Shown here: piece after piece, positions 3 to 11,283 of the stretch
Position numbering within the stretch: the first letter of the stretch is position 1
How the letters are laid out: every line of letters starts with the position of its first letter
Source of the DNA: Bacillota bacterium
Lineage (GTDB): Bacteria > Sysuimicrobiota > Sysuimicrobiia > Sysuimicrobiales > Segetimicrobiaceae
Assembly: GCA_021324295.1 (NCBI GenBank)
Contig: JAJPJJ010000119.1
Span: 1-64,000 of the forward strand
DNA length: 64,000 nt
Direction of reading: 5' to 3'
Notes under the pieces: generated by a model
What the model saw: the letters and a program-made list of their open reading frames with translations, nothing else
Told to the model about the DNA's origin: nothing
Databases searched by the model: none
Program-made: the position numbers and the translations under genes

Positions 3-413
3 GCCGACGACGCGGGCCGGCGCGGCCGGGGGAGAGAAGAACAAGAACTACAAGGAAGGAGGTGGAGATTCCAGAGATTCACCCTCCACGAAAGCGGGGC
101 AACCTCACATCCGCTGCCGCCCCACGCGATCCTGGACGCCCTCACCGAGATCAGGGTGCAGACGTCGGAGGATCGCGGGACAGGCGCGCCGGCTCGGGCC
201 ACGCTGCGGTCGGTGCGTGTCATCGTGCGCGGGCTCCGGCTCTCGGCGCCGCTCTCCTGGCTCTCGGAGCCGACCCCAGCGGAGGTGCGGTGTCTGGCGC
301 TGGCCGCGCTCGGCACGCGCCACGCCGGTCTTGCGCGCACGCGCGGCCGCGGCCACATCCGCGTGGCGCTCGATGGGGACGTCGCGGCGACGCGCGCGGT
401 GGCGAGGGGATGA
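3..413 (+). CDS. C-terminal part of a CRISPR-associated RAMP-like protein (5' truncated)
   Basis: The frame is open from the left edge to the TGA at 411-413, giving 136 residues with no start inside the window. Near the C-terminus lies LARTRGRGHIRVALD, a basic glycine-rich stretch of the kind that ends RAMP domains of type III effector proteins; it is preceded by a hydrophobic beta-like segment ending in LSAPLSW. The next gene, csx10, starts 2 bp after this stop, so it is the first visible member of the cas operon. The full protein could be another RAMP subunit or the tail of a larger subunit such as Cas10; the visible part does not decide this. Codon use matches the neighbours. Confidence 0.55.
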   Translation, partial: ADDAGRRGRGREEQELQGRRWRFQRFTLHESGATSHPLPPHAILDALTEIRVQTSEDRGTGAPARATLRSVRVIVRGLRLSAPLSWLSEPTPAEVRCLALAALGTRHAGLARTRGRGHIRVALDGDVAATRAVARG

Positions 414-415
414 GC

Positions 416-2113
416 ATGGTGCACCGATATCTACCCTACACCCTCGAGCTCCGCGCGCCCGTGATCCTGGCGGCCGCGGGGAGCGATCCGAACAGCACGC
501 GGACCCTGCCCTATATTCCTGGGTCGGCGCTGCGCGGGGCCGCGGCGCGGGCCCTGGGGGATCCCGGAGCCAATCCGGCGCGCCAGCACGACTTTCGGGC
601 GCTCATCCTGGCTGGCAGCGTCCGCTGGCTCAATGCCTACCCCCGCGCGGGCGGCCGGCGGGCGCTTCCGACGCCGGTGTCCTTCCGCGTCAACAAGAAC
701 GAGATCGAGTCGTCCGAGGGGGCGATCCGGGTGCTGGACCTGGCGGCCAGTGTCGCGCACGCGACCGCCCAGTGGCCCGAAGAACCCCTCATCCCGCTGG
801 CGGAGCGCTTCGTTACACTGGGGGCCACCCAGCCTCTGCGTGTGGAGCCGCGGCGTCGGAGCCGCATCCACCACCAACGCGATCGTGCTCGAGGGCGGGC
901 GTGGACGGAGGAGCGGGACGGACGCGAAGAGGCGCATGGCGCGGTCTTCGCCTTCGAGTTCCTCGACGCCGGCCAGGAGTTCGAAGGTATCGTGCTCGTT
1001 CAGGGCGAGAGCGAGAGCCGGTGCGATGATCTGGCGGACCGGGTTCGCGCGTGTCTCGCCGGTCCGCTGCTTCTGGGCCGATCCCGACGCGCAGGTTACG
1101 GGGGGCAGGCCGCGGTCACGTGGCACGCGCCGCGCCCGCGCGAGGTGGTCGGCGAGGAGCTGGTGCAGCGTGACATCCCGCCCGGCACGATCTTTCGGGC
1201 CTTGCTGACGTCGGCCTACATCGGCCGCAGCCCCGCGACCGGGCAGATCGATCCGACCCGCCTGGAAGCCGAGGTTGTGGCGGCGCTGGCGTCAGGCGAC
1301 GCTGGCGAAGAACCAATGGACCGCGTCCGGGTGCTGGGTCGCTGCTGGGCGTTCGAGGTCGTGGGGGGCTTCAACCGCAAGCAGCGAGTGGAGGTTCCAC
1401 AGGCACTTGCATGCGTCGGCGGCTCGGTGCTCGTGCTGGAAGCTACCGCACCGATCCCGCTTGCCGATCTGCTGGCTGTCGAGCACGCCGGTCTGGGAGA
1501 ACGCCGAGCCGAGGGCTTCGGGAGGGTGGCGTTTCTCGAGAAACCGACCGAGGCGGTCGTCCTACGGCGGCCGCCTATGGCCAGGGTTGGACCGCCGACG
1601 GCCGATCCACCGGAACTTGCCCGGTTCGTCGAATGGCGCATTCTGGATCGCGTGGTGCAGCGAGTGATCGCCGAGGAGGCAGCCCGCCTCGCGGAGCCCG
1701 CAAAGCCGAGGCCGACCGCCAGCCTGATCGCGCGTCTTCGCAATGCCCTGCGCCAGGAGCCTGCAGCAGCCCTCGGCACGCTCCGGGACTGGTGTGCCCA
1801 GGAAGGTAGCGCACGGCTGAGGCGACCCGCCATGGATCAGCTCGAGCGCTGCCGCATTGGCTCGTCGAGCGAGCGGCTATCGGACTGGGTTCGGAAACTG
1901 ACCCGAGAAAGAGCCGACACCGAGCGGTACGCTGCGGAGTTGTTGCGGCTGGAGACCATCGCACAGCGCTACTACGTGATCTCCGAGTCGTCTGCGCGCC
2001 GGACGCTCAGGGCCCGCGACACTCTGATGCGAGCACGCCTGATCGACGCCACGCTTGCCGCCCTGGCACGTGCCTCGCGCGTTCCGGGAAGCCGCCACGA
2101 CGATGTCCGTTGA
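416..2113 (+). CDS. csx10: Csx10-family RAMP protein (type III-D-like effector subunit)
   Basis: A 565-residue protein with a Csx10-like N-terminus: LELRAPVILAAAG, then LPYIPGSALRGAAARAL at residues 31-47, the conserved PGS-LRG loop of RAMP folds. A later segment, NAYPRAGGRRALPTP, also fits this family. Glycine-rich loops (GRSRRAGYGG, and RRAEGFGRVAF further on) mark two RAMP units, followed by a helical C-terminal extension of about 200 residues. In known type III-D complexes Csx10 is a Cas5-like backbone subunit. ATG 416 is preferred over ATG 410 because GAGGGG at 404-409 then sits 6 nt upstream. The gene overlaps the next by 11 bp. The function is inferred from family features, not from any domain search. 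Confidence 0.75.
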   Translation: MVHRYLPYTLELRAPVILAAAGSDPNSTRTLPYIPGSALRGAAARALGDPGANPARQHDFRALILAGSVRWLNAYPRAGGRRALPTPVSFRVNKNEIESSEGAIRVLDLAASVAHATAQWPEEPLIPLAERFVTLGATQPLRVEPRRRSRIHHQRDRARGRAWTEERDGREEAHGAVFAFEFLDAGQEFEGIVLVQGESESRCDDLADRVRACLAGPLLLGRSRRAGYGGQAAVTWHAPRPREVVGEELVQRDIPPGTIFRALLTSAYIGRSPATGQIDPTRLEAEVVAALASGDAGEEPMDRVRVLGRCWAFEVVGGFNRKQRVEVPQALACVGGSVLVLEATAPIPLADLLAVEHAGLGERRAEGFGRVAFLEKPTEAVVLRRPPMARVGPPTADPPELARFVEWRILDRVVQRVIAEEAARLAEPAKPRPTASLIARLRNALRQEPAAALGTLRDWCAQEGSARLRRPAMDQLERCRIGSSSERLSDWVRKLTRERADTERYAAELLRLETIAQRYYVISESSARRTLRARDTLMRARLIDATLAALARASRVPGSRHDDVR

Positions 2114-3626
2114 GCCGCTCAGCGACGCCGGCGGGGTAAGACCGGTCACCGCCCGTTGGGTCGTGACCGGAGACTTGGTGCTGGACAGCGCCGCGCACGT
2201 CGGCAGCGGCAGGGGGACCGGGGATGGCCCGGACATGGTGCTTCTGCGAGACGCGCGCGAGGGGCGACCACTGCTTCCGGGCACCTCCCTGGCCGGGGCC
2301 CTGCGGTGCCATCTCGCGGACGTGCTTGGAGGCTACCGCAGCGACGAGGCTCCTGCCGTGGCACGTCTCTTCGGGGCAGCGAGGGCCCCACGTCGCCGCC
2401 ACGGTCGTCAACGAGGTGGAGCTCCTGCCGTGGCACGTCTCTTCGGGGCAGCGAGGAGCGAGGACGCAGGCACCCAGAGCCCGCTGATCGTCTTCGACAG
2501 CCTCGGTATCCTGCCCGACGGACAGGCGGCGGAGATTCGGGACGGTGTCCAGATCGACGTCGCGCGCGGGACCGCTGCGGAACACAAGAAGTTCGACCTC
2601 GAGGTTGCGCCGGCCGGCACAAGATTCCCGCTGCGATTCGACCTGATCGTGCCCGACGCGGGCGTGGAGGCTGAGCTCGTGAGCCTTCTCGTCGCGAGCC
2701 TGAACGGATTGATGGCAGGCGACTTGTCCCTTGGTGCCCGCCGTTCGCGGGGGCTCGGTGCCGTGCACGCCACGGACTGGAGGGCAATCCGCCACGAGCT
2801 GACCTCGAGGGAAGGGTGGATCGGCTGGGTTACCTCGGACCCTGAGGCACCGATTGCCGGCGGACTGCCCGGGGCGGCGAGCCCGGCTGCCGCCTGCCGT
2901 CGCGCGTTCCCTGGACTCGACCTGCGAGACCAGGAGGATCGCCGGCGGCGTCTTGTGGTCGTTGCCGATCTGTCGGTGAGAGGCGGGCTGCTGGTCCGGA
3001 GCGCACCGACCAGCGCCGATGCGCCGGACGCCGTGCAGTTGCAATCGGGCGGGCGTTCCGTCCTGCCCGGCACGAGCGTAGCGGGCGCGCTCCGCAGTCG
3101 TGCGCTGCGAATCGCACGCATCGTCCGCGCAGCCAAAGGCGACGCGGAGTGGTGGGTCGATCGCCTCTTCGGCCCGCGCACGGAGGGGGTGAGCGGCCGG
3201 GACGCATACGAGCACCGGGCATCCCACCTTCGGGTCTCGGAAGGCCCTCTGCACAACGGCACGGGTCTTCGCATTGCTCGCGTGCGCATCGATCGCTTGG
3301 CACAGGGAGTAGTTCCCGGTGCGCTCTTCGACGAAGAGCCAGAGTACGGCAGCGCCATTCGCATCACGTTTGAGCTTCGCGATCCCCAGCCCGGCGAGCC
3401 CGGGCTCCTGTACCTTGTCCTCAAGGATCTCCTGGCTGGCGACGTTATCATCGGCGGCACGGGTTCCGTGGGGCGGGGTGTGCTGTGCGGCGCGGCCGAT
3501 GTGCGCACGGAGACCGGCGAACGCATACGGCTGGACCCTCAGGGGGACACGGGGCCAGCGAACCAGATCGACCACGCGATCCAAGAGTTTTGGGAGCTGG
3601 ACCCGCTACGGGGGCCGCATGAGTAG
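2103..3626 (+). CDS. Double-RAMP Csm3/Cmr4-like protein carrying an internal 36-bp duplication
   Basis: A 507-residue protein with two tandem RAMP units. The first has LLPGTSLAGALR at residues 57-68, an LFG motif, SPLIVFDS and the glycine-rich loop GARRSRGLG. The second has VLPGTSVAGALR, VDRLFG and GGTGSVGRG. This is the Csm3/Cmr4 (Cas7-like) backbone type that binds crRNA and, in active type III complexes, cuts target RNA using an Asp in an N-terminal loop; GDGPD at 40-44 could supply it. Residues 83-94 and 107-118 are the same 12-residue string APAVARLFGAAR, separated by an unrelated arginine-rich dodecapeptide. A family-like protein would have this string once, just before SPLIVFDS. The start overlaps csx10 by 11 bp. 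Confidence 0.75.
   Translation: MSVEPLSDAGGVRPVTARWVVTGDLVLDSAAHVGSGRGTGDGPDMVLLRDAREGRPLLPGTSLAGALRCHLADVLGGYRSDEAPAVARLFGAARAPRRRHGRQRGGAPAVARLFGAARSEDAGTQSPLIVFDSLGILPDGQAAEIRDGVQIDVARGTAAEHKKFDLEVAPAGTRFPLRFDLIVPDAGVEAELVSLLVASLNGLMAGDLSLGARRSRGLGAVHATDWRAIRHELTSREGWIGWVTSDPEAPIAGGLPGAASPAAACRRAFPGLDLRDQEDRRRRLVVVADLSVRGGLLVRSAPTSADAPDAVQLQSGGRSVLPGTSVAGALRSRALRIARIVRAAKGDAEWWVDRLFGPRTEGVSGRDAYEHRASHLRVSEGPLHNGTGLRIARVRIDRLAQGVVPGALFDEEPEYGSAIRITFELRDPQPGEPGLLYLVLKDLLAGDVIIGGTGSVGRGVLCGAADVRTETGERIRLDPQGDTGPANQIDHAIQEFWELDPLRGPHE
2349..2456 (+). repeat. 36-bp perfect direct repeat flanking a 36-bp unrelated insert (CRISPR-like unit inside a cas gene)
   Basis: Bases 2349-2384 and 2421-2456 are identical over 36 bp; positions immediately outside differ (2348 G versus 2420 A, 2385 G versus 2457 A). 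The intervening 2385-2420 is also exactly 36 bp and unrelated to the repeat. The added 72 bp is 24 codons and in frame. The repeat ends can pair: CTC and CTGCC near one end with GGCAG and GAG near the other, with one bulged base. Size, spacing and duplication pattern match the product of Cas1-Cas2 spacer integration. A local rearrangement or an assembly artefact remains possible. No third copy was noticed in the window. Confidence 0.85.
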
Positions 3627-4188
3627 GCTGCGAGGGTGCCACATCGAGACGCTCGACGACGCGTCCGCACGCGGGTGGGTGGACTGGGTGATGGGCCGCC
3701 GAGACGCCCCGCGGGCGATCGCCGGGCCCGCATGGCTGCTCGCGCACTGCGACGGCGGCGTCACGTGGGGCTGGTTGGAACACGGCCGCTGGCGTCTCGG
3801 CTCGGAGGCTTTTCCCGACCTGTGCCCCAAACCGGACGAGGGGCTCCAGGAGCTGCGGGTGTTCACCCCGGCCGTAGAGCTCCTGCTCTGGCGGGACGCG
3901 GACGCTCTCCGCGGGAGGTCCGTCCGGGACGATGGTGACAGCGCGCCCGACGACCCGCTTCGCCCTTGTGACGAAATGCGCGTCCTCGTCTCCGGCCGCG
4001 TCATCGATCGCCGCAACGGATTCACGCGCGTGCGCGACGGGACAGGGAGAGAACACGCGCTGCCGGGCTCCGTGCCTGACCGCGTGTCATCGTCATGGCC
4101 TCGGCTCCGCGTCCGCCACTACTTTCTGCAGGACGGGGAGACGGGGGCGGTTCGCGTGGCCCTGACGCGCCTCGTGGAGGTGACCTGA
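3619..4188 (+). CDS. csx19: Csx19-family CRISPR-associated protein (TIGR03984-like)
   Basis: A 189-residue protein. The segment LQELRVFTPAVELLLWR followed by an acidic DGDSAPDDP stretch, and the downstream hydrophobic strand RLRVRHYFLQDGE, resemble Csx19 proteins, which accompany Csx10 in type III-D loci; their biochemical role is not well established. An early tryptophan-rich segment (WVDWVMG, WGWLEHGRWRLG) is also family-like. The ATG at 3619 overlaps the end of the double-RAMP gene by 8 bp, and the stop overlaps the next start as ATGA, indicating translational coupling. The position between two RAMP genes supports the call. Confidence 0.65.
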   Translation: MSRLRGCHIETLDDASARGWVDWVMGRRDAPRAIAGPAWLLAHCDGGVTWGWLEHGRWRLGSEAFPDLCPKPDEGLQELRVFTPAVELLLWRDADALRGRSVRDDGDSAPDDPLRPCDEMRVLVSGRVIDRRNGFTRVRDGTGREHALPGSVPDRVSSSWPRLRVRHYFLQDGETGAVRVALTRLVEVT

Positions 4189-6500
4189 TGCCACGCCACG
4201 TCAACCCGACGACGCCTGACCGCACGGCCACCGCGCCGTACAACTTTGTGCCGCTTCCAAATCAAATCTTCACCGTCGATGAGGGCATCCCCGTGGACGG
4301 CGTGAAGATCAAACCCTGGGAGTGCCACGACCGGTTCGTCCCCGGCACCCACAGCGGCTGGATCGAGTGCACGATCGAACTCCTGACGCCGCTCTACGTT
4401 CGGGGCGCCGTTGTACAGCGGGCGGGACAGCACGGGGACTCCCGCGACGCGCGCCTGCGCCCCGACCCGTATTGCACACCTGACGGGCGGCCCGCCATTC
4501 CGGGCTCGAGCCTGCGGGGCATGGTACGCGCTCTGGTCGAGGTCCTCGCCTTTGCCAAGGTTCAGCCGGTAAGCCCGGCGAAGCCGTTCTTCCGGACCGT
4601 GACCCCTGATCGTATGGGCGAAGCCTACACGGCGCGGATGCGCCGCGGCCAGGGCGTGCAGGGCGGGTTTCTCAGACGTCGAGACGACGGCTGGGCCATC
4701 GAACCGTGTCGGGTGCTGCGTGTCGACCGGGACGAGCTTCGGGGGGTACGAGTTGCCTCCACAGCCAACGAGACGCCGCCCTGGCCTCCCCAGCACAGCC
4801 CGTGCTGGGTCAGGGTCGGCGCGGGCGCCGACCGCGTCGATGCCATTCACATCCAGGAGGAGCGGCCCGGAGAGGACGGAGCGTGGCAACGGGGCACGCT
4901 CGTCCTCACCGGTCACGTGCGGAAGAAGCGACGCGAGTTCGTGTTCCTGGATGTCCAGGATCGGGCGCAGGCGGTGCACGTGCCGCAGTACGTATGGGAT
5001 CGGTTCCACGACGAGGACCAGATCACACCGTGGCAGGCGCGGGCGTTCCCGCGCGACAAACCCGAGCCGGGCTGCCGTCGCGCCGACGGGTACCTGCGCA
5101 GCGGCGAGCCTGTCTTTTTCGTCCGGGATGACGAGCTCGCAACCGCTGACAACCCCAATGGGCTGGTGTTTCTCGGAAGGGCCGGCATGTTCCGGCTGCC
5201 GTACGACGTCGGGCCGGCGGATCTCGTCCCGAGCCACCTTGCGAACGCGGGCCTCGACCTCGCGGAGGCCATGTTCGGACGGCTCCGTGACGGGGCAGCC
5301 ATCAAGGGGCGTGTGTTCTTCGAGGATGCGGTGGCCGTCGGCGGCGGGCCCGACTGGTTCGAGGACGTAATCGTTCCGCGCGTCCTGTCCGCGCCCAAGG
5401 TGACAACCTTCCAGCACTATCTGACCCAAGATGGAACGCGAGGTCCGCACGACCTGACCACATACCTGAGAGGCGACCACACCACGATACGCGGTCACAA
5501 GTGGTACTGGCACCGCTGGAGTGACGACAAGGGGCTCGAGCTCGTCAAGGAGTCGCCTGAGGACCACGACCGGCTGCTTCGCGATCTGCGCGGGTCGCAA
5601 CCCGCGGACACCCAGCACACGATCATCCGTCCGGTGAAGGGGGGGACCCGTTTTGCCGGCCGTGTGCGATTCGAAAACCTTACCGACATCGAGCTGGGGG
5701 CGCTCCTGTGTGCCCTGGATCTCCCGACCGGGTGTGCCCACAAGCTCGGGATGGGGAAACCGCTCGGGCTCGGCAGCGTGCGGATCGAGCCGCAGCTGAA
5801 GCTTGTCGATCGCGCTGAGCGCTATCGGAGCTGGCGGGCAAGCGGCGCCACAGCGAGCGACGGCTCACAGTTTCGCAGGGCCTTCGAAGAGGCAATCGTC
5901 CAGCACGCACGAGCGTCGAACGAGCCGATGCTCCAAGGCCGGTTCGGCCTCCGCCGCATCGCGCGACTCGACGCGCTATTTTTTCTCCTCGAGTGGCAGA
6001 ACAGGCCCGCGTCGAGCGCGACCGCGTCCATGGACCTCGCTCGGTTTCGCCAACGCCCGGTGCTGCCCACTCCGCACGCCGTGGCCGGAGCCCCTGAGCC
6101 ACCGTGGCCTTGCGATCCGCCGCGACCGGCCGCTTCGGGCCGGGCGTCTGCGAGGAGGTCCCGAGGAGCCGACGATCGAGGCGGACACGATGCAATGCGT
6201 GTGCGGCCCGTCGAGCCGATCCCGGCACCGGCGCTCAGGGTGGGTGCTCACGTCGAGGCGACGCTGCTGGAGGAGAAGACGAGGAAGGGTGGGTGGAAGG
6301 CACGACACGAACCGTCCGGGCTCGCGGGTCCCATTCAGAATACGGCGCACGTACCGGCTCACCACAAGCCGGGCGACCGCGTAGTCCTCATCGTCGCCTC
6401 GGTCGGGATCCAGGGGATCGCGTTCCGCTTCCCAACAGAGACCGGCGCAGACGCGTCGCGCAGCACGTCGATGAGGAAGAGGAAGGCTGACCGCGCATAG
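4188..6500 (+). CDS. TIGR03986-family CRISPR-associated RAMP protein
   Basis: A 770-residue protein starting with the TIGR03986-like signature APYNFVPLP at residues 16-24. The RAMP loop IPGSSLRGMVRALVE lies at 104-118, a glycine-rich loop GMGKPLGLGSVRIE is in the second half, and the C-terminal domain contains LLEEKTRKGGWKAR and SGLAGPIQN, an OB-like fold typical of this family's tail. Such proteins occur in type III-D-like loci beside Csx10 and Csx19 and are thought to be fused RAMP backbone subunits. Its length is at or above the usual range. The ATG overlaps the csx19 stop; cas3 follows after 9 bp. Confidence 0.75.
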   Translation: MPRHVNPTTPDRTATAPYNFVPLPNQIFTVDEGIPVDGVKIKPWECHDRFVPGTHSGWIECTIELLTPLYVRGAVVQRAGQHGDSRDARLRPDPYCTPDGRPAIPGSSLRGMVRALVEVLAFAKVQPVSPAKPFFRTVTPDRMGEAYTARMRRGQGVQGGFLRRRDDGWAIEPCRVLRVDRDELRGVRVASTANETPPWPPQHSPCWVRVGAGADRVDAIHIQEERPGEDGAWQRGTLVLTGHVRKKRREFVFLDVQDRAQAVHVPQYVWDRFHDEDQITPWQARAFPRDKPEPGCRRADGYLRSGEPVFFVRDDELATADNPNGLVFLGRAGMFRLPYDVGPADLVPSHLANAGLDLAEAMFGRLRDGAAIKGRVFFEDAVAVGGGPDWFEDVIVPRVLSAPKVTTFQHYLTQDGTRGPHDLTTYLRGDHTTIRGHKWYWHRWSDDKGLELVKESPEDHDRLLRDLRGSQPADTQHTIIRPVKGGTRFAGRVRFENLTDIELGALLCALDLPTGCAHKLGMGKPLGLGSVRIEPQLKLVDRAERYRSWRASGATASDGSQFRRAFEEAIVQHARASNEPMLQGRFGLRRIARLDALFFLLEWQNRPASSATASMDLARFRQRPVLPTPHAVAGAPEPPWPCDPPRPAASGRASARRSRGADDRGGHDAMRVRPVEPIPAPALRVGAHVEATLLEEKTRKGGWKARHEPSGLAGPIQNTAHVPAHHKPGDRVVLIVASVGIQGIAFRFPTETGADASRSTSMRKRKADRA

Positions 6501-6509
6501 GGAAGCTGA

Positions 6510-9449
6510 ATGGTCGACTTCTCGACTTACTTCCACGCCCTCTGGGGCTACGCCCCCTTCCCCTGGCAGGCCATGCTCGCAGAGCAGGTGACCGGGGGGC
6601 GGTGGCCGCGAGTCCTCGACCTTCCCACCGCCTCGGGCAAGACGGCCTGCCTGGACATCGCCGTCTACGCCCTCGCCGCGCAGGCGGACCGTCCCCTCGA
6701 TGCGCGCACCGCGCCGCGACGAATCTGGTTTGTAGTGGATCGCCGCATCGTGGTGGACGAGGCGTTCGAGCGCGCTCGAATTATTGCCGACAGGCTGGCC
6801 CACGCCGAGACCGGTCCTCTCAGGACCGTCGCCGACAGGTTGCGTGGCCTGAGCGGCACCTCGCGCGCGCTTGCGGTCGGCCGGCTCCGAGGCGGTGTGC
6901 TCAGGGACGACGGCTGGGCACGCATCCCGTCGCAGCCGGCGGTGATCACCTCCACCGTGGATCAGCTCGGCTCGCGCGTGCTCTTCCGCGGCTATGGGCG
7001 CAGCCTGCTGGCGGCGCCGATCTTCGCCGGGCTGGCCGTGAACGACAGTCTGATCATCGTGGACGAAGCGCACTGCGCCGTCCCGCTGCTCCAGACCCTT
7101 CAGGCCGTCGCACGGTATCGCGGCGCGGACTGGGCTGAAGTCCCGCTCCGCACGCCCTTTGCGTTTGTCACGATGTCGGCTACGCCGTCCTCGCAGGTGC
7201 CCATGGAAGCGGTCTTCCCCGGTGCGGAGCGGGCGCGTGCCCTCGACCATCCGGCGCTGCGCCGGCGGCTGTGCACTCCGAAGCTGGCCGAGCTCGTCGC
7301 GGTCGCTGTCGCGCGCACCACAGCCAACCAGCGACCCGTTCCGGAAGACTCGCTGGTCGCCGAATCGGCTCGCCGCGCCGCGGAGCAGGTGGGCGCGGGG
7401 AAGCGGCGCGTGGCGGTTATGGTGAATCGCGTCCGCACGGCCGAGGCCGTCGCCGATGCGCTGGGCGCCGCACTCGGCGGCGGCGCCGACGTGGTGTTGC
7501 TCACCGGTCGCATCCGGCCGGTCGAGCGCGATGCGCTTGTGGCGCACTGGACCCCGTACTTGAGGGCCACGCAGCCCGAGGAACCCGGGCGCCCCGTGGT
7601 CGTCGTGGCCACGCAGTGCCTGGAGGTCGGGGCCGACTTCAGTTTCGATACGCTCGTGACCGAGTGTGCCAGTCTGGACGCGCTCAGGCAGCGCTTCGGC
7701 CGGCTGGCCCGCCTCGGCGCGGACCAACCGGCGGCGGCGGCGATCCTCATCCGAGAGAACGATGCGAACGGCGATGAACCCGACGCCGTCTATGGGAGGG
7801 CGCTCGCCTCGACCTGGGCGTGGCTTCGGGACATGGCGGTCCGCCGCGACGGTGGCGGGCTCGTCGTGGACCTGGGCGTCGAGGCCCTCGAGAGCAAGGT
7901 GCGTACGGTCTCGGAGCTCGGATCCCTGGCGACCCCGGTCGAGAGCGCCCCTGCGTTGCTACCGGCGCACCTCGATCTGCTCTGTCAGACGGCCCCGGCC
8001 CCGCATCCCGAACCGGACATCTCGCTCTACCTGCATGGCCGGCCGAGCCCGCCTGACGTGTTTGTCGTCTGGCGCTGCGACCTCGCGCCGCACGATACCA
8101 CAACCTGGGTGGAGACCGTGGCCCTGTGTCCCCCGGTGACCGGTGAAATGTTGCAGGTGCCGCTGTGGCGCCTGCGCCGCTGGCTGGCGGAACGGGCCGG
8201 AGCGGACAACGCCGCGGATGTCGAAGGGGTGGGCGAGACCCAGGAGGACGAAGACGGTCGCGTCCGGCCCTGTGTGCTCTGGCGGGGCCGGGACATGTCC
8301 GTGGTGACGACGGCGGCCGCAGAGATCGCACCGCGAGACGTGGTCGTTGTGCCGGCGTCCTACGGCATTGCCGGCCTCGGACAGGCGACCCGGGCGCAGG
8401 CCGTCGGCGTCGATCGCCTGGACCTCTGGGAGGTCGCCCTGGCACAAGCCGGGCGGCCGCCCGCCCTCCGCTTGCATCGTGCCGTGCTCGCCCCCTGGAC
8501 CGACGCCCCGCCGATTGCGGCGCTCCTCGCCCTGGCGGAGATGCCGGTCTGGGATCGCCACGAGATCCAGGCCGCAGCCGAGGTGGCCCTTGCCCATCGC
8601 CCCGCGGCTGACGGGGACCCGCCCGGGCCCCCGGCCTGGTGGCTCGATGTGTTGCGAAAGGTCATGACGGGGCGGTTCGAGGATCACCCGGCCGGTGGTC
8701 TCATTCTCCGCGCTCCGGCCTCCGCCAGGCGTGACGCCCCCGAGCCCGACCTCTTCGCGGATGACGACGACCTGACCTCGACGGCCGAAACGCAGGTCAC
8801 TCTCGATGATCACACGGCGTCGGTGCGCCGCGCCGCGATCAGACTTGCGGGGAAGTGTCTTCCCGACGCCCTGCAGGAGGTGTTCGAGCTGGCCGCCGTT
8901 TGGCACGACGCGGGGAAGCTGGACACGCGATTTCAGGCCGTGCTCCACCTGGGTGACGAGGTGGCGGCGGCGACCGCAAGCGCACCGCTGGCCAAGTCAG
9001 CGACAATGCCGGTCTCTCCCGCGGAGCGGTCCAGGATCCGGGAAGCCACCGGCCTTCCTGCTCACTTCCGGCACGAGATGCTCTCGCGCCTCTTGGTCGA
9101 GCGGTCGGGAGGCCTGCGCGGCGACAGCGACGTCGTGGACCTCGTTCTGCACCTCGTCACCAGCCACCACGGACACGGTCGCCCGTTCGCGCCGGTGTGC
9201 CTGGACACCAGCCCGCCTGGGGTCTCGGGTGTGCTCGGTGGCGTCCGGATCGAGCTCGATGCCACGGCGCGGGTCAACGCGGTGCCCGCCCACCGCCTTG
9301 ATTCCGGCGTGACCGAGCGGTTCTGGCGGCTCACCCGACGGTATGGGTGGTGGGGGCTAGCATATCTGGAGGCGATCCTGCGCCTGGCCGACTGGTATGG
9401 GAGCACGCACGTGGTATCGCCGGAGACCCGACGGGAACCCGAACGATGA
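6510..9449 (+). CDS. cas3: Cas3 helicase-nuclease with C-terminal HD domain (type I-G-like)
   Basis: A 979-residue superfamily 2 helicase. Visible motifs: a Q-motif-like PFPWQ at 16-20, Walker A PTASGKTA at 39-46, DEAH at 185-188, MSATPS at 222-227, motif V-like CLEVGADFS, and motif VI QRFGRLAR at 394-401. The HD nuclease domain is at the C-terminus (about 760-965): H768, WHDAGKLD with H799-D800, RHEMLSRLL, TSHHGHG near 884-890, and RLADWYGS. This order (helicase then HD) is characteristic of type I-G (formerly I-U) Cas3, in contrast to the N-terminal HD of most Cas3 proteins. It should unwind and degrade target DNA after recruitment. GGAAG sits 5 nt before the ATG. No catalytic residue appears lost. 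Confidence 0.9.
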   Translation: MVDFSTYFHALWGYAPFPWQAMLAEQVTGGRWPRVLDLPTASGKTACLDIAVYALAAQADRPLDARTAPRRIWFVVDRRIVVDEAFERARIIADRLAHAETGPLRTVADRLRGLSGTSRALAVGRLRGGVLRDDGWARIPSQPAVITSTVDQLGSRVLFRGYGRSLLAAPIFAGLAVNDSLIIVDEAHCAVPLLQTLQAVARYRGADWAEVPLRTPFAFVTMSATPSSQVPMEAVFPGAERARALDHPALRRRLCTPKLAELVAVAVARTTANQRPVPEDSLVAESARRAAEQVGAGKRRVAVMVNRVRTAEAVADALGAALGGGADVVLLTGRIRPVERDALVAHWTPYLRATQPEEPGRPVVVVATQCLEVGADFSFDTLVTECASLDALRQRFGRLARLGADQPAAAAILIRENDANGDEPDAVYGRALASTWAWLRDMAVRRDGGGLVVDLGVEALESKVRTVSELGSLATPVESAPALLPAHLDLLCQTAPAPHPEPDISLYLHGRPSPPDVFVVWRCDLAPHDTTTWVETVALCPPVTGEMLQVPLWRLRRWLAERAGADNAADVEGVGETQEDEDGRVRPCVLWRGRDMSVVTTAAAEIAPRDVVVVPASYGIAGLGQATRAQAVGVDRLDLWEVALAQAGRPPALRLHRAVLAPWTDAPPIAALLALAEMPVWDRHEIQAAAEVALAHRPAADGDPPGPPAWWLDVLRKVMTGRFEDHPAGGLILRAPASARRDAPEPDLFADDDDLTSTAETQVTLDDHTASVRRAAIRLAGKCLPDALQEVFELAAVWHDAGKLDTRFQAVLHLGDEVAAATASAPLAKSATMPVSPAERSRIREATGLPAHFRHEMLSRLLVERSGGLRGDSDVVDLVLHLVTSHHGHGRPFAPVCLDTSPPGVSGVLGGVRIELDATARVNAVPAHRLDSGVTERFWRLTRRYGWWGLAYLEAILRLADWYGSTHVVSPETRREPER

Positions 9450-10573
9450 CGCAGGATGCCTTCGATCTCTCGGGCCTCGACGGGACCAACCCCCTCGGCT
9501 TCCTCGCTGCGGTCGGGACGCTGGTGGTGCTCGCGCGGGACGGGCATCCCCAGTCGCGGCTGTGGTGGAAGGAGTCGACCACCTGGGTCCCCGTGCTCGC
9601 GGGGGTGCCGGTCGTGGACGAGGAGCGACTCTCGCAGCTCGTCGCGCATGCGTTGGCCGGCGCGGCCGTATCGGCCGACGATGAACGCCGCCGCAGAGAG
9701 GCCGAGCGATCGATGCAGGACGCCAAGCGGTCGCTGGATAGGAAGATGCGGGAGCTGAGGAGCGCGCGTCGCGATCACCGGGAGAGGAACGCGGCGCTCG
9801 AGGAGGCAGTGCGCGCACTCGAAGAGGACTACAGCGAGACGCGCCGGCGATGGCTCCAGGCTCTCCGTCGGGCCGTACCGCGACCGGAGCTCGCGCTCGG
9901 TAGACGCCTCGACTGCACCCCCGACGAGTACCGCGAGCACGCGACCGGCATGCTGGACCATGCCACCTACGCGTCGCGGGATGCGCTCGACCTGCTGGCG
10001 GCTTTCGGAAGCGACGGGTGCTCGCGCCGCGATGGTGCCATCGAGCCCACGCCCTTCTGCTTCATCACGGGGTCCGGGCACCAGGAGTTCCTGGACACGG
10101 TGCGGGCGCTGATCGACAAGGTCACCCCGGAACGCGTCCGGGAGACGCTGTTCCGGCCATGGGACTATCGCGACGCGCGCCTGTCCATGCGCTGGGACCC
10201 CGCGGAAGACAAGCGGTACGCCCTCCTCGACGCGGATCCGAGCGACACGGGAGCCCGCACGGTGTGGATGGCCAACCTGCTGGCCTACCGCGCTTTGTCG
10301 CTCTTCCCGTCCACCCCCACCGCACGGGGTTTGGGCGCGGCGGGATGGAGCCTGGCGGCGGGATCCATGGTGTTCTCCTGGCCGCTGTGGCAATACCAGG
10401 CGTCGCTGGACAGCGTTCGCTCGCTGGTGCAACTCAGCGACCTGGCGCACGCACATCCGGATACGGCGGCCCTGCGCGCCCGGGGGATCGCGGCCGTGTA
10501 CCGGTCTCAGCGCATCGACGTTGGGTCAGGCGGGAAAAGGAAGATCAATTTCACGCCGGCCCGGCTGGTGTAG
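9446..10573 (+). CDS. Type I-G-like Cas3-extension / Cas8-like protein
   Basis: A 375-residue protein opening with DLSGLDGTNPLGFLAAVGTL, a signature I associate with the type I-G Cas3-extension family and related large-subunit-like proteins. Residues about 75-135 form a charged helical, coiled-coil-like stretch (RRREAERSMQDAKRSLDRK and onward). The C-terminal half has WMANLLAYRALSLFP and FSWPLWQYQ, hydrophobic motifs of the same family. The ATG overlaps the cas3 stop (ATGA), so it is coupled to Cas3 translation and probably works with it. It is the last cas gene; transposase debris follows. The exact family name is less certain than its membership of a type I-G-like module. Confidence 0.6.
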   Translation: MTQDAFDLSGLDGTNPLGFLAAVGTLVVLARDGHPQSRLWWKESTTWVPVLAGVPVVDEERLSQLVAHALAGAAVSADDERRRREAERSMQDAKRSLDRKMRELRSARRDHRERNAALEEAVRALEEDYSETRRRWLQALRRAVPRPELALGRRLDCTPDEYREHATGMLDHATYASRDALDLLAAFGSDGCSRRDGAIEPTPFCFITGSGHQEFLDTVRALIDKVTPERVRETLFRPWDYRDARLSMRWDPAEDKRYALLDADPSDTGARTVWMANLLAYRALSLFPSTPTARGLGAAGWSLAAGSMVFSWPLWQYQASLDSVRSLVQLSDLAHAHPDTAALRARGIAAVYRSQRIDVGSGGKRKINFTPARLV

Positions 10574-10730: not shown

Positions 10731-11283
10731 GGCCATGGCCGCCACGAGGACGCGACGTTGACGGGCGCCCGGCGGATTCACGTGCCGCGCGGGACCTTGT
10801 GGCCCGGAGAACGCAGCCCGGAGTGTGCCATGGCCAAAGTGTACGTTCAACGGGAGCCCTCGCCGCTGGGCCGCGTCGTAGGCCGAGTCCCGCTGGTTGC
10901 CACCGTGTACGAGCTGCACGCCCGCGGTGCCACCTGTGCGGGAGGCTGTCTAGCGCCACCCCGCCTGACGGCGTCGGAGAGGAAAAGTACGACGCGACGG
11001 CGTCGAGCATGATCGGGCTGCTGAAGTGCAGCGGCGAGATGCCCTTTAATCGCGTGGCGGCCATGCACGCCGGTCTCGAGATCCCCTACCGACGCCCACG
11101 CAGCGAGAGAGCGTCGCGGAGGCCGCCGCACGCCTGCGACCGGTCCATGACCAGCTGATTCACCACGCGGCTCTGGGCGCGGCGCTGCATGACGACCACA
11201 CCCGCATGCTCGTCCGGACGCTTCCGCAGGAAACGCAAGCGCGCAGAGTACCCCTGTGCTCACCTGGCAGAACGTGTGCTTGA
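10731..11283 (+). pseudogene. Degenerate IS66-family transposase (tnpC) fragment
   Basis: Read across three frames, the sequence gives successive IS66 TnpC segments: GHGRHEDATLTGAR, then GRVPLVATVYEL, then RCHLCGR with DGVGEEKYDATASSMIGLLK and MPFNR, then EAAARLRPVHDQLIHH and HDDHTRML. Frameshifts fall near 10920 and near 11095, and a stop follows at 11281-11283. The N-terminal and C-terminal portions and the IS ends are missing. The flanks 10574-10730 and 11284-11487 hold no gene I can support and may be further decayed IS sequence. The remnant marks the right edge of the cas operon and suggests past mobility or rearrangement there. Confidence 0.8.

Follow-up and report, generated by a model that had tools for sequence, protein, structure and literature searches.

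The hybrid III-Dv/I-G locus and the gene with the insertion

The DNA analysed here (the window, 64 kb in length) is the start of contig C106 in a draft genome of 129 contigs, 4.02 Mb and 96% complete. Between positions 410 and 10573, type III-Dv effector genes are joined directly to a type I-G Cas3g gene and a Cas3-extension family gene, forming a hybrid III-Dv/I-G locus (Table 1). The same hybrid arrangement was seen in two relatives, Nitrosovibrio sp. Nv17 (L014) and the Thermoleophilia MAG FR_37 (L015). The true start of the Cas3-extension gene is probably downstream of position 9347.

Table 1. Features of the hybrid locus and of the repeat-insert-repeat structure in cas7-2x
Feature	Position in window	Strand	Remarks
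Putative insertion-sequence end	1–105 (borders approximate)		Shared 18-bp terminal sequence TTGCCCCGCTTTCGTGGA; other end on contig C54
Csx10-like RAMP gene, same operon as cas7-2x	410–2113	+	TIGR02674, E = 7.2e-26, below the curated cut-off
cas7-2x (double-Cas7 RAMP, type III-Dv), bears the insertion	2103–3626	+	Open frame, 507 aa
R1, upstream copy of the duplicated 36-bp target	2349–2384	+	Exact direct repeat; codes APAVARLFGAAR
Spacer-like 36-bp insert	2385–2420	+	Translates to APRRRHGRQRGG in the cas7-2x frame
R2, downstream 36-bp copy of the target	2421–2456	+	36/36 identical to R1
ORF at the csx19 place in the operon	3619–4188	+	Matches annotated III-Dv loci in place and size
Cas7-insertion type RAMP gene	4188–6500	+	TIGR03986, E = 3.7e-112, above the cut-off
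Type I-G Cas3g gene	6510–9449	+	TIGR02621, E = 7.1e-209, above the cut-off
Type I-G Cas3-extension family gene	9347–10573	+	NF049934, E = 7.3e-72, above the cut-off

The gene that bears the insertion is, by its sequence, cas7-2x of a type III-Dv CRISPR operon. It matched the Cas7-2x of PDB entry 8s9t with E = 3.6e-22, the second domain being matched weakly by sequence, and its homologues, which cover 87–97% of the query, have csx19 and TIGR03986 genes as neighbours, including the homologues in plasmid III-D loci. The initial annotation had called it a cas RAMP gene of the CRISPR system concerned. It is indeed a RAMP gene, more precisely cas7-2x of type III-Dv; the Cas1 gene and array found in this genome are part of a type I-G locus, which lies on a different contig.

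Within cas7-2x, a 36-bp segment (GCTCCTGCCGTGGCACGTCTCTTCGGGGCAGCGAGG) occurs twice on either side of an unrelated insert (GCCCCACGTCGCCGCCACGGTCGTCAACGAGGTGGA). The base preceding the segment is G at R1 and A at R2, and the base following it is likewise G at R1 and A at R2. Because the bordering bases differ on both sides, the repeat and the insert are each exactly 36 bp long, and the perfect duplication reported at this site is real, with unambiguous borders. R1 and R2 form the sole direct repeat in the window with an exact run of at least 18 bp and a start-to-start distance of 20–600. The gain of 72 bp adds 24 residues in frame, as had also been claimed, and the gene reads as one open frame from the ATG at 2103 to the stop that ends at 3626.

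The extra residues (95–118 of the protein numbered from this ATG) are in the connector of the first Cas7 domain, between blocks aligned to residues 3–66 and 85–193 of 8s9t. They follow by about 50 residues an aspartate (D44) that aligns with D33 of 8s9t, the catalytic Asp of domain 1 in that Cas7-2x (PMC11026444). Since the insertion sits between the aligned blocks, an in-frame Cas7-2x product with 24 extra residues is conceivable. An AlphaFold2 model of the protein, built from a three-sequence alignment, had a mean pLDDT of 38 and was unusable.

The first ~105 bases of the window appear to be one end of an insertion sequence, and the end of C54, a 5.2-kb contig on which Cas10 is located, its other end. 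(CATC may be a 4-bp target duplication, and the same insertion-sequence end is also present after the I-G array of contig C91.) When compared with the L014 operon, the end of C54 and the start of C106 meet at a single point (L014:4031–4033), and this, together with the shared insertion-sequence ends, indicates that the insertion sequence probably splits the leading RAMP gene of the III-Dv operon. As the operon is interrupted upstream in this way, this copy of it is probably decaying, not gaining function. The insertion in cas7-2x probably persists there under weak selection.

Empty sites in homologues and dimensions of the native array

The homologues in L014 and L015 were compared with cas7-2x by tblastn. 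The alignment opens a gap of 24 residues at the insertion, where the sequence of both homologues is continuous and contains a single copy of the segment. Because two close homologues are without exactly these 24 residues, the insertion is, on this comparison of sequences, derived. A check against homologues had been proposed in the initial annotation; neither homologue shares the duplication, and both have the empty site. The event was probably recent, since R1 and R2 are identical. Among 399 Thermoleophilia genomes searched for further III-Dv relatives, only the one already known was found.

One Cas1 gene was found in the genome, a Cas4-Cas1 fusion of 553 aa (C91:38593–39432). The locus on C91 is of type I-G, with Csb1 (TIGR02570), Csb2 (TIGR02165), a Cas3-like ORF, an array and, beside the array, a Cas2-like ORF, so that genes for an integrase are present in the same genome as the insertion. 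The array comprises 23 repeats of GTTTCCACGACCGCAAGGTCGTGGCTCCATTGAAGC, all 36 bp long, and 22 spacers of 35–39 bp. The duplication in cas7-2x has the length of the native repeat, and the insert falls inside the native spacer range. The CRISPR-typical 36/36/36 dimensions that were first pointed out for this site are therefore in agreement with the genome's own array.

A second structure in the Thermoleophilia relative

The L015 genome, an assembly consisting of a single 4.6-Mb contig, had been obtained only as the source of a cas7-2x homologue. It contains a 37-nt direct repeat with one mismatch (10789–10825 and 10860–10896), with 34 nt between the copies and a period of 71. One base of this repeat may be a chance extension, which would make the dimensions 36/35. 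The structure lies inside a TIGR02710 CARF gene, where the frame through the first copy meets a stop in the insert and the protein resumes in another frame from the second copy; the FSYVGG segment occurs once in two Thermus homologues of the gene. (A further frame break, upstream in the same CARF gene, was seen in the reading frames.) An array starts 2 kb from the duplication and has 85 repeats, all of 36 bp, with spacers of 34–40 bp, most commonly 35. The duplication of 36–37 thus compares with a native repeat of 36, and the insert of 34–35 lies within the native spacer range. This structure is a second case, independent of the one in the window.

Other non-array direct repeats were sought with a finder that requires an exact run of 18–22 bp, so that older events may escape it. 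The neighbourhoods of 80 other Cas1 loci were surveyed, about 1.4 Mb in all, and no further case of such dimensions was found in 643 kb at 40 loci of the genome's own phylum and Thermoleophilia, or in 778 kb at 40 loci of a second phylum. Another 585 kb and 280 kb, from the two genomes that carry the cases, gave none either. A two-repeat case from the second-phylum scan (L143) was set aside as an apparent genuine mini-array on the basis of its repeat sequence. That scan also gave, near another Cas1 locus (L160, 12675–12767), a 28-bp exact direct repeat that surrounds 37 bp of apparently noncoding DNA; it was rejected as a case of array dimensions, as it does not match the 37-bp repeat of its array.

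Origin of the insert and explanation of the structure

The initial annotation had suggested searching for the insert in phages, plasmids and the host, and these searches gave no convincing source. No copy within three mismatches was present elsewhere in the 4.0-Mb genome. A 17-bp match to the start of the insert at C1:7707 was discarded as a donor, since it does not extend to 36 bp within three mismatches. The best match among phages and plasmids had an E value of about 0.1, and the 20-base core of the insert and its degenerate coding version were both absent from the viral contigs searched, as was the core of the L015 insert. Neither insert matched spacers of the genome's own array or of the L015 array. 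In frame +1 the insert reads PHVAATVVNEVE; every third position is G or C, which has the look of borrowed coding DNA, but the search of viral contigs returned no relative. Most CRISPR spacers are without a known source, so the lack of one here neither favours nor rules out a foreign origin.

The choice of site was also considered. The duplicated segment is identical to the native repeat at 11 of 36 positions in direct orientation and at 17 of 36 to its reverse complement, the latter a level reached by 0.7% of local 36-mers; the duplicated target in L015 has no such reverse-orientation likeness to the L015 repeat. The two targets share the 9-mer GGCAGCGAG near their 3' ends; a shared run of such length is expected in ~1% of random pairs. 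We treat the reverse-complement likeness and the shared 9-mer as leads, not as evidence. A leader-like context common to the two sites was not established.

We regard off-target Cas1-Cas2 integration as the best explanation of the repeat-insert-repeat structure in cas7-2x, and a probable one, because the lengths match those of the native array, the homologous sites are empty, an integrase is encoded in the genome and the L015 case fits its own array. On these grounds the initial annotation was right in part: the off-target spacer insertion that it proposed is the best-supported reading. Against it count the failure of the searches to find a source for the insert, the weak and reverse-only likeness of the target to the native repeat, the occurrence of repeat-insert-repeat structures of other sizes and the small number of cases, namely two. 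In the course of events that we infer, with Cas1-Cas2 as the agent, foreign DNA as the insert and gap repair as the cause of the duplication, the integrase would most likely have been the Cas4-Cas1 fusion and Cas2 of the type I-G locus, which would have put a 36-bp prespacer into cas7-2x instead of the leader-repeat junction of the array. Each strand would have been attacked by one 3' end of the prespacer, at points separated by 36 bp as at the native 36-bp repeat, and gap filling would then have duplicated the 36-bp target on both sides. Off-target integration has been observed with purified Cas1-Cas2 (PMC6895254), and in vitro, type I-G spacer-side integration took place at the correct site in only 60–70% of events (PMC10504553).

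The main rival, which we hold to be unlikely, is an accident of repair or replication in which CRISPR had no part: 36 bp would have been duplicated and a 36-bp filler taken up at a staggered break or by template switching, and the agreement in size with the array would be coincidental. Direct repeats of other dimensions around fillers do exist in the surveyed DNA (28/37, 35/73 and 21/63), and the origin of the filler may be missing from a draft that is 96% complete. However, two cases in two genomes each fit the repeat and spacer lengths of their own array, and the genome search found no adequate donor. The argument is that two lengths match in each of two genomes, and we attach no formal probability to it. 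Target duplications made by known transposases are roughly 2–15 bp long, and a transposon target duplication was rejected because 36 bp exceeds this range.

An artefact of assembly is very improbable. The genome is in many contigs, and the window contig ends at an insertion sequence, but the structure spans just 108 bp, both junctions are internal to the contig and the frame is kept; moreover, the comparable L015 structure is in a single-contig assembly. Most improbable of all is a selected function, whether as a working nascent CRISPR or as a deliberate regulatory or protein-level repeat, both of which had been raised for this site. The insertion is in frame, stop-free and located in a connector, where it may be tolerated. 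Against this, it is missing from the homologues, the L015 case is in an unrelated gene with a broken frame, and the operon is interrupted upstream. The duplicated segment does not have the sequence of the native repeat, and no Rfam match was found for the structure. Where a CRISPR array would have at least three units of a native-like repeat, there are here two copies of a segment with the low direct identity given above. Neither the functional nascent CRISPR nor the regulatory repeat was thus borne out.

Off-target integration has been proposed to give rise to new CRISPR arrays and also to endanger the host genome, and natural fossils of it are few. For Yersinia pestis and Sulfolobus islandicus, putative natural cases were reportedly listed by Nivala, Shipman and Church in 2018. 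Two independent, dimension-matched cases in cas genes, together with homologues that have the empty site, offer concrete sites for an integration assay. They also suggest a signature for a genome-wide census, since the duplicated length should track the native repeat length of each genome. Two of the three close relatives examined carry a structure of this kind; it is unlikely that hybrid III-Dv/I-G loci are genuine hot spots at which spacers integrate ectopically. If they were, the adaptation machinery would be attracted time and again by its own effector operon, damaging or remodelling it, possibly by way of the shared GGCAGCGAG.

The gene and its surroundings resemble the Synechocystis III-Dv system (PDB 8s9t–8s9x; PMC11026444) in the two Cas7 domains of Cas7-2x, the gene neighbourhood and the aligned catalytic Asp, and differ from it in the 24 extra residues in the connector of the first domain, the neighbouring I-G Cas3g gene and the probable splitting of the operon by an insertion sequence. 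The adaptation genes on C91 correspond to those described for type I-G (Cas4/1-Cas2; PMC10504553), with a Cas4-Cas1 fusion, a Cas2-like ORF, an array of 36-bp repeats and spacers of 35–39 bp, whereas the integration proposed here would have occurred outside both leader and repeat. With the non-canonical spacer integration of Nivala, Shipman and Church (2018), as cited in PMC9456107 and PMC11788318, the structure has in common a spacer-sized insert that lies outside an array between exact duplicates as long as a repeat; it differs in its location within cas genes (one for a III-Dv effector subunit here, a CARF gene in the relative), in a Cas1 that is fused to Cas4 and in the 36-bp length of the repeats. 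Natural off-target integration is thus of a known kind, and what is of note here is that a CRISPR system's own genes appear to have been struck and that this recurred in a relative.
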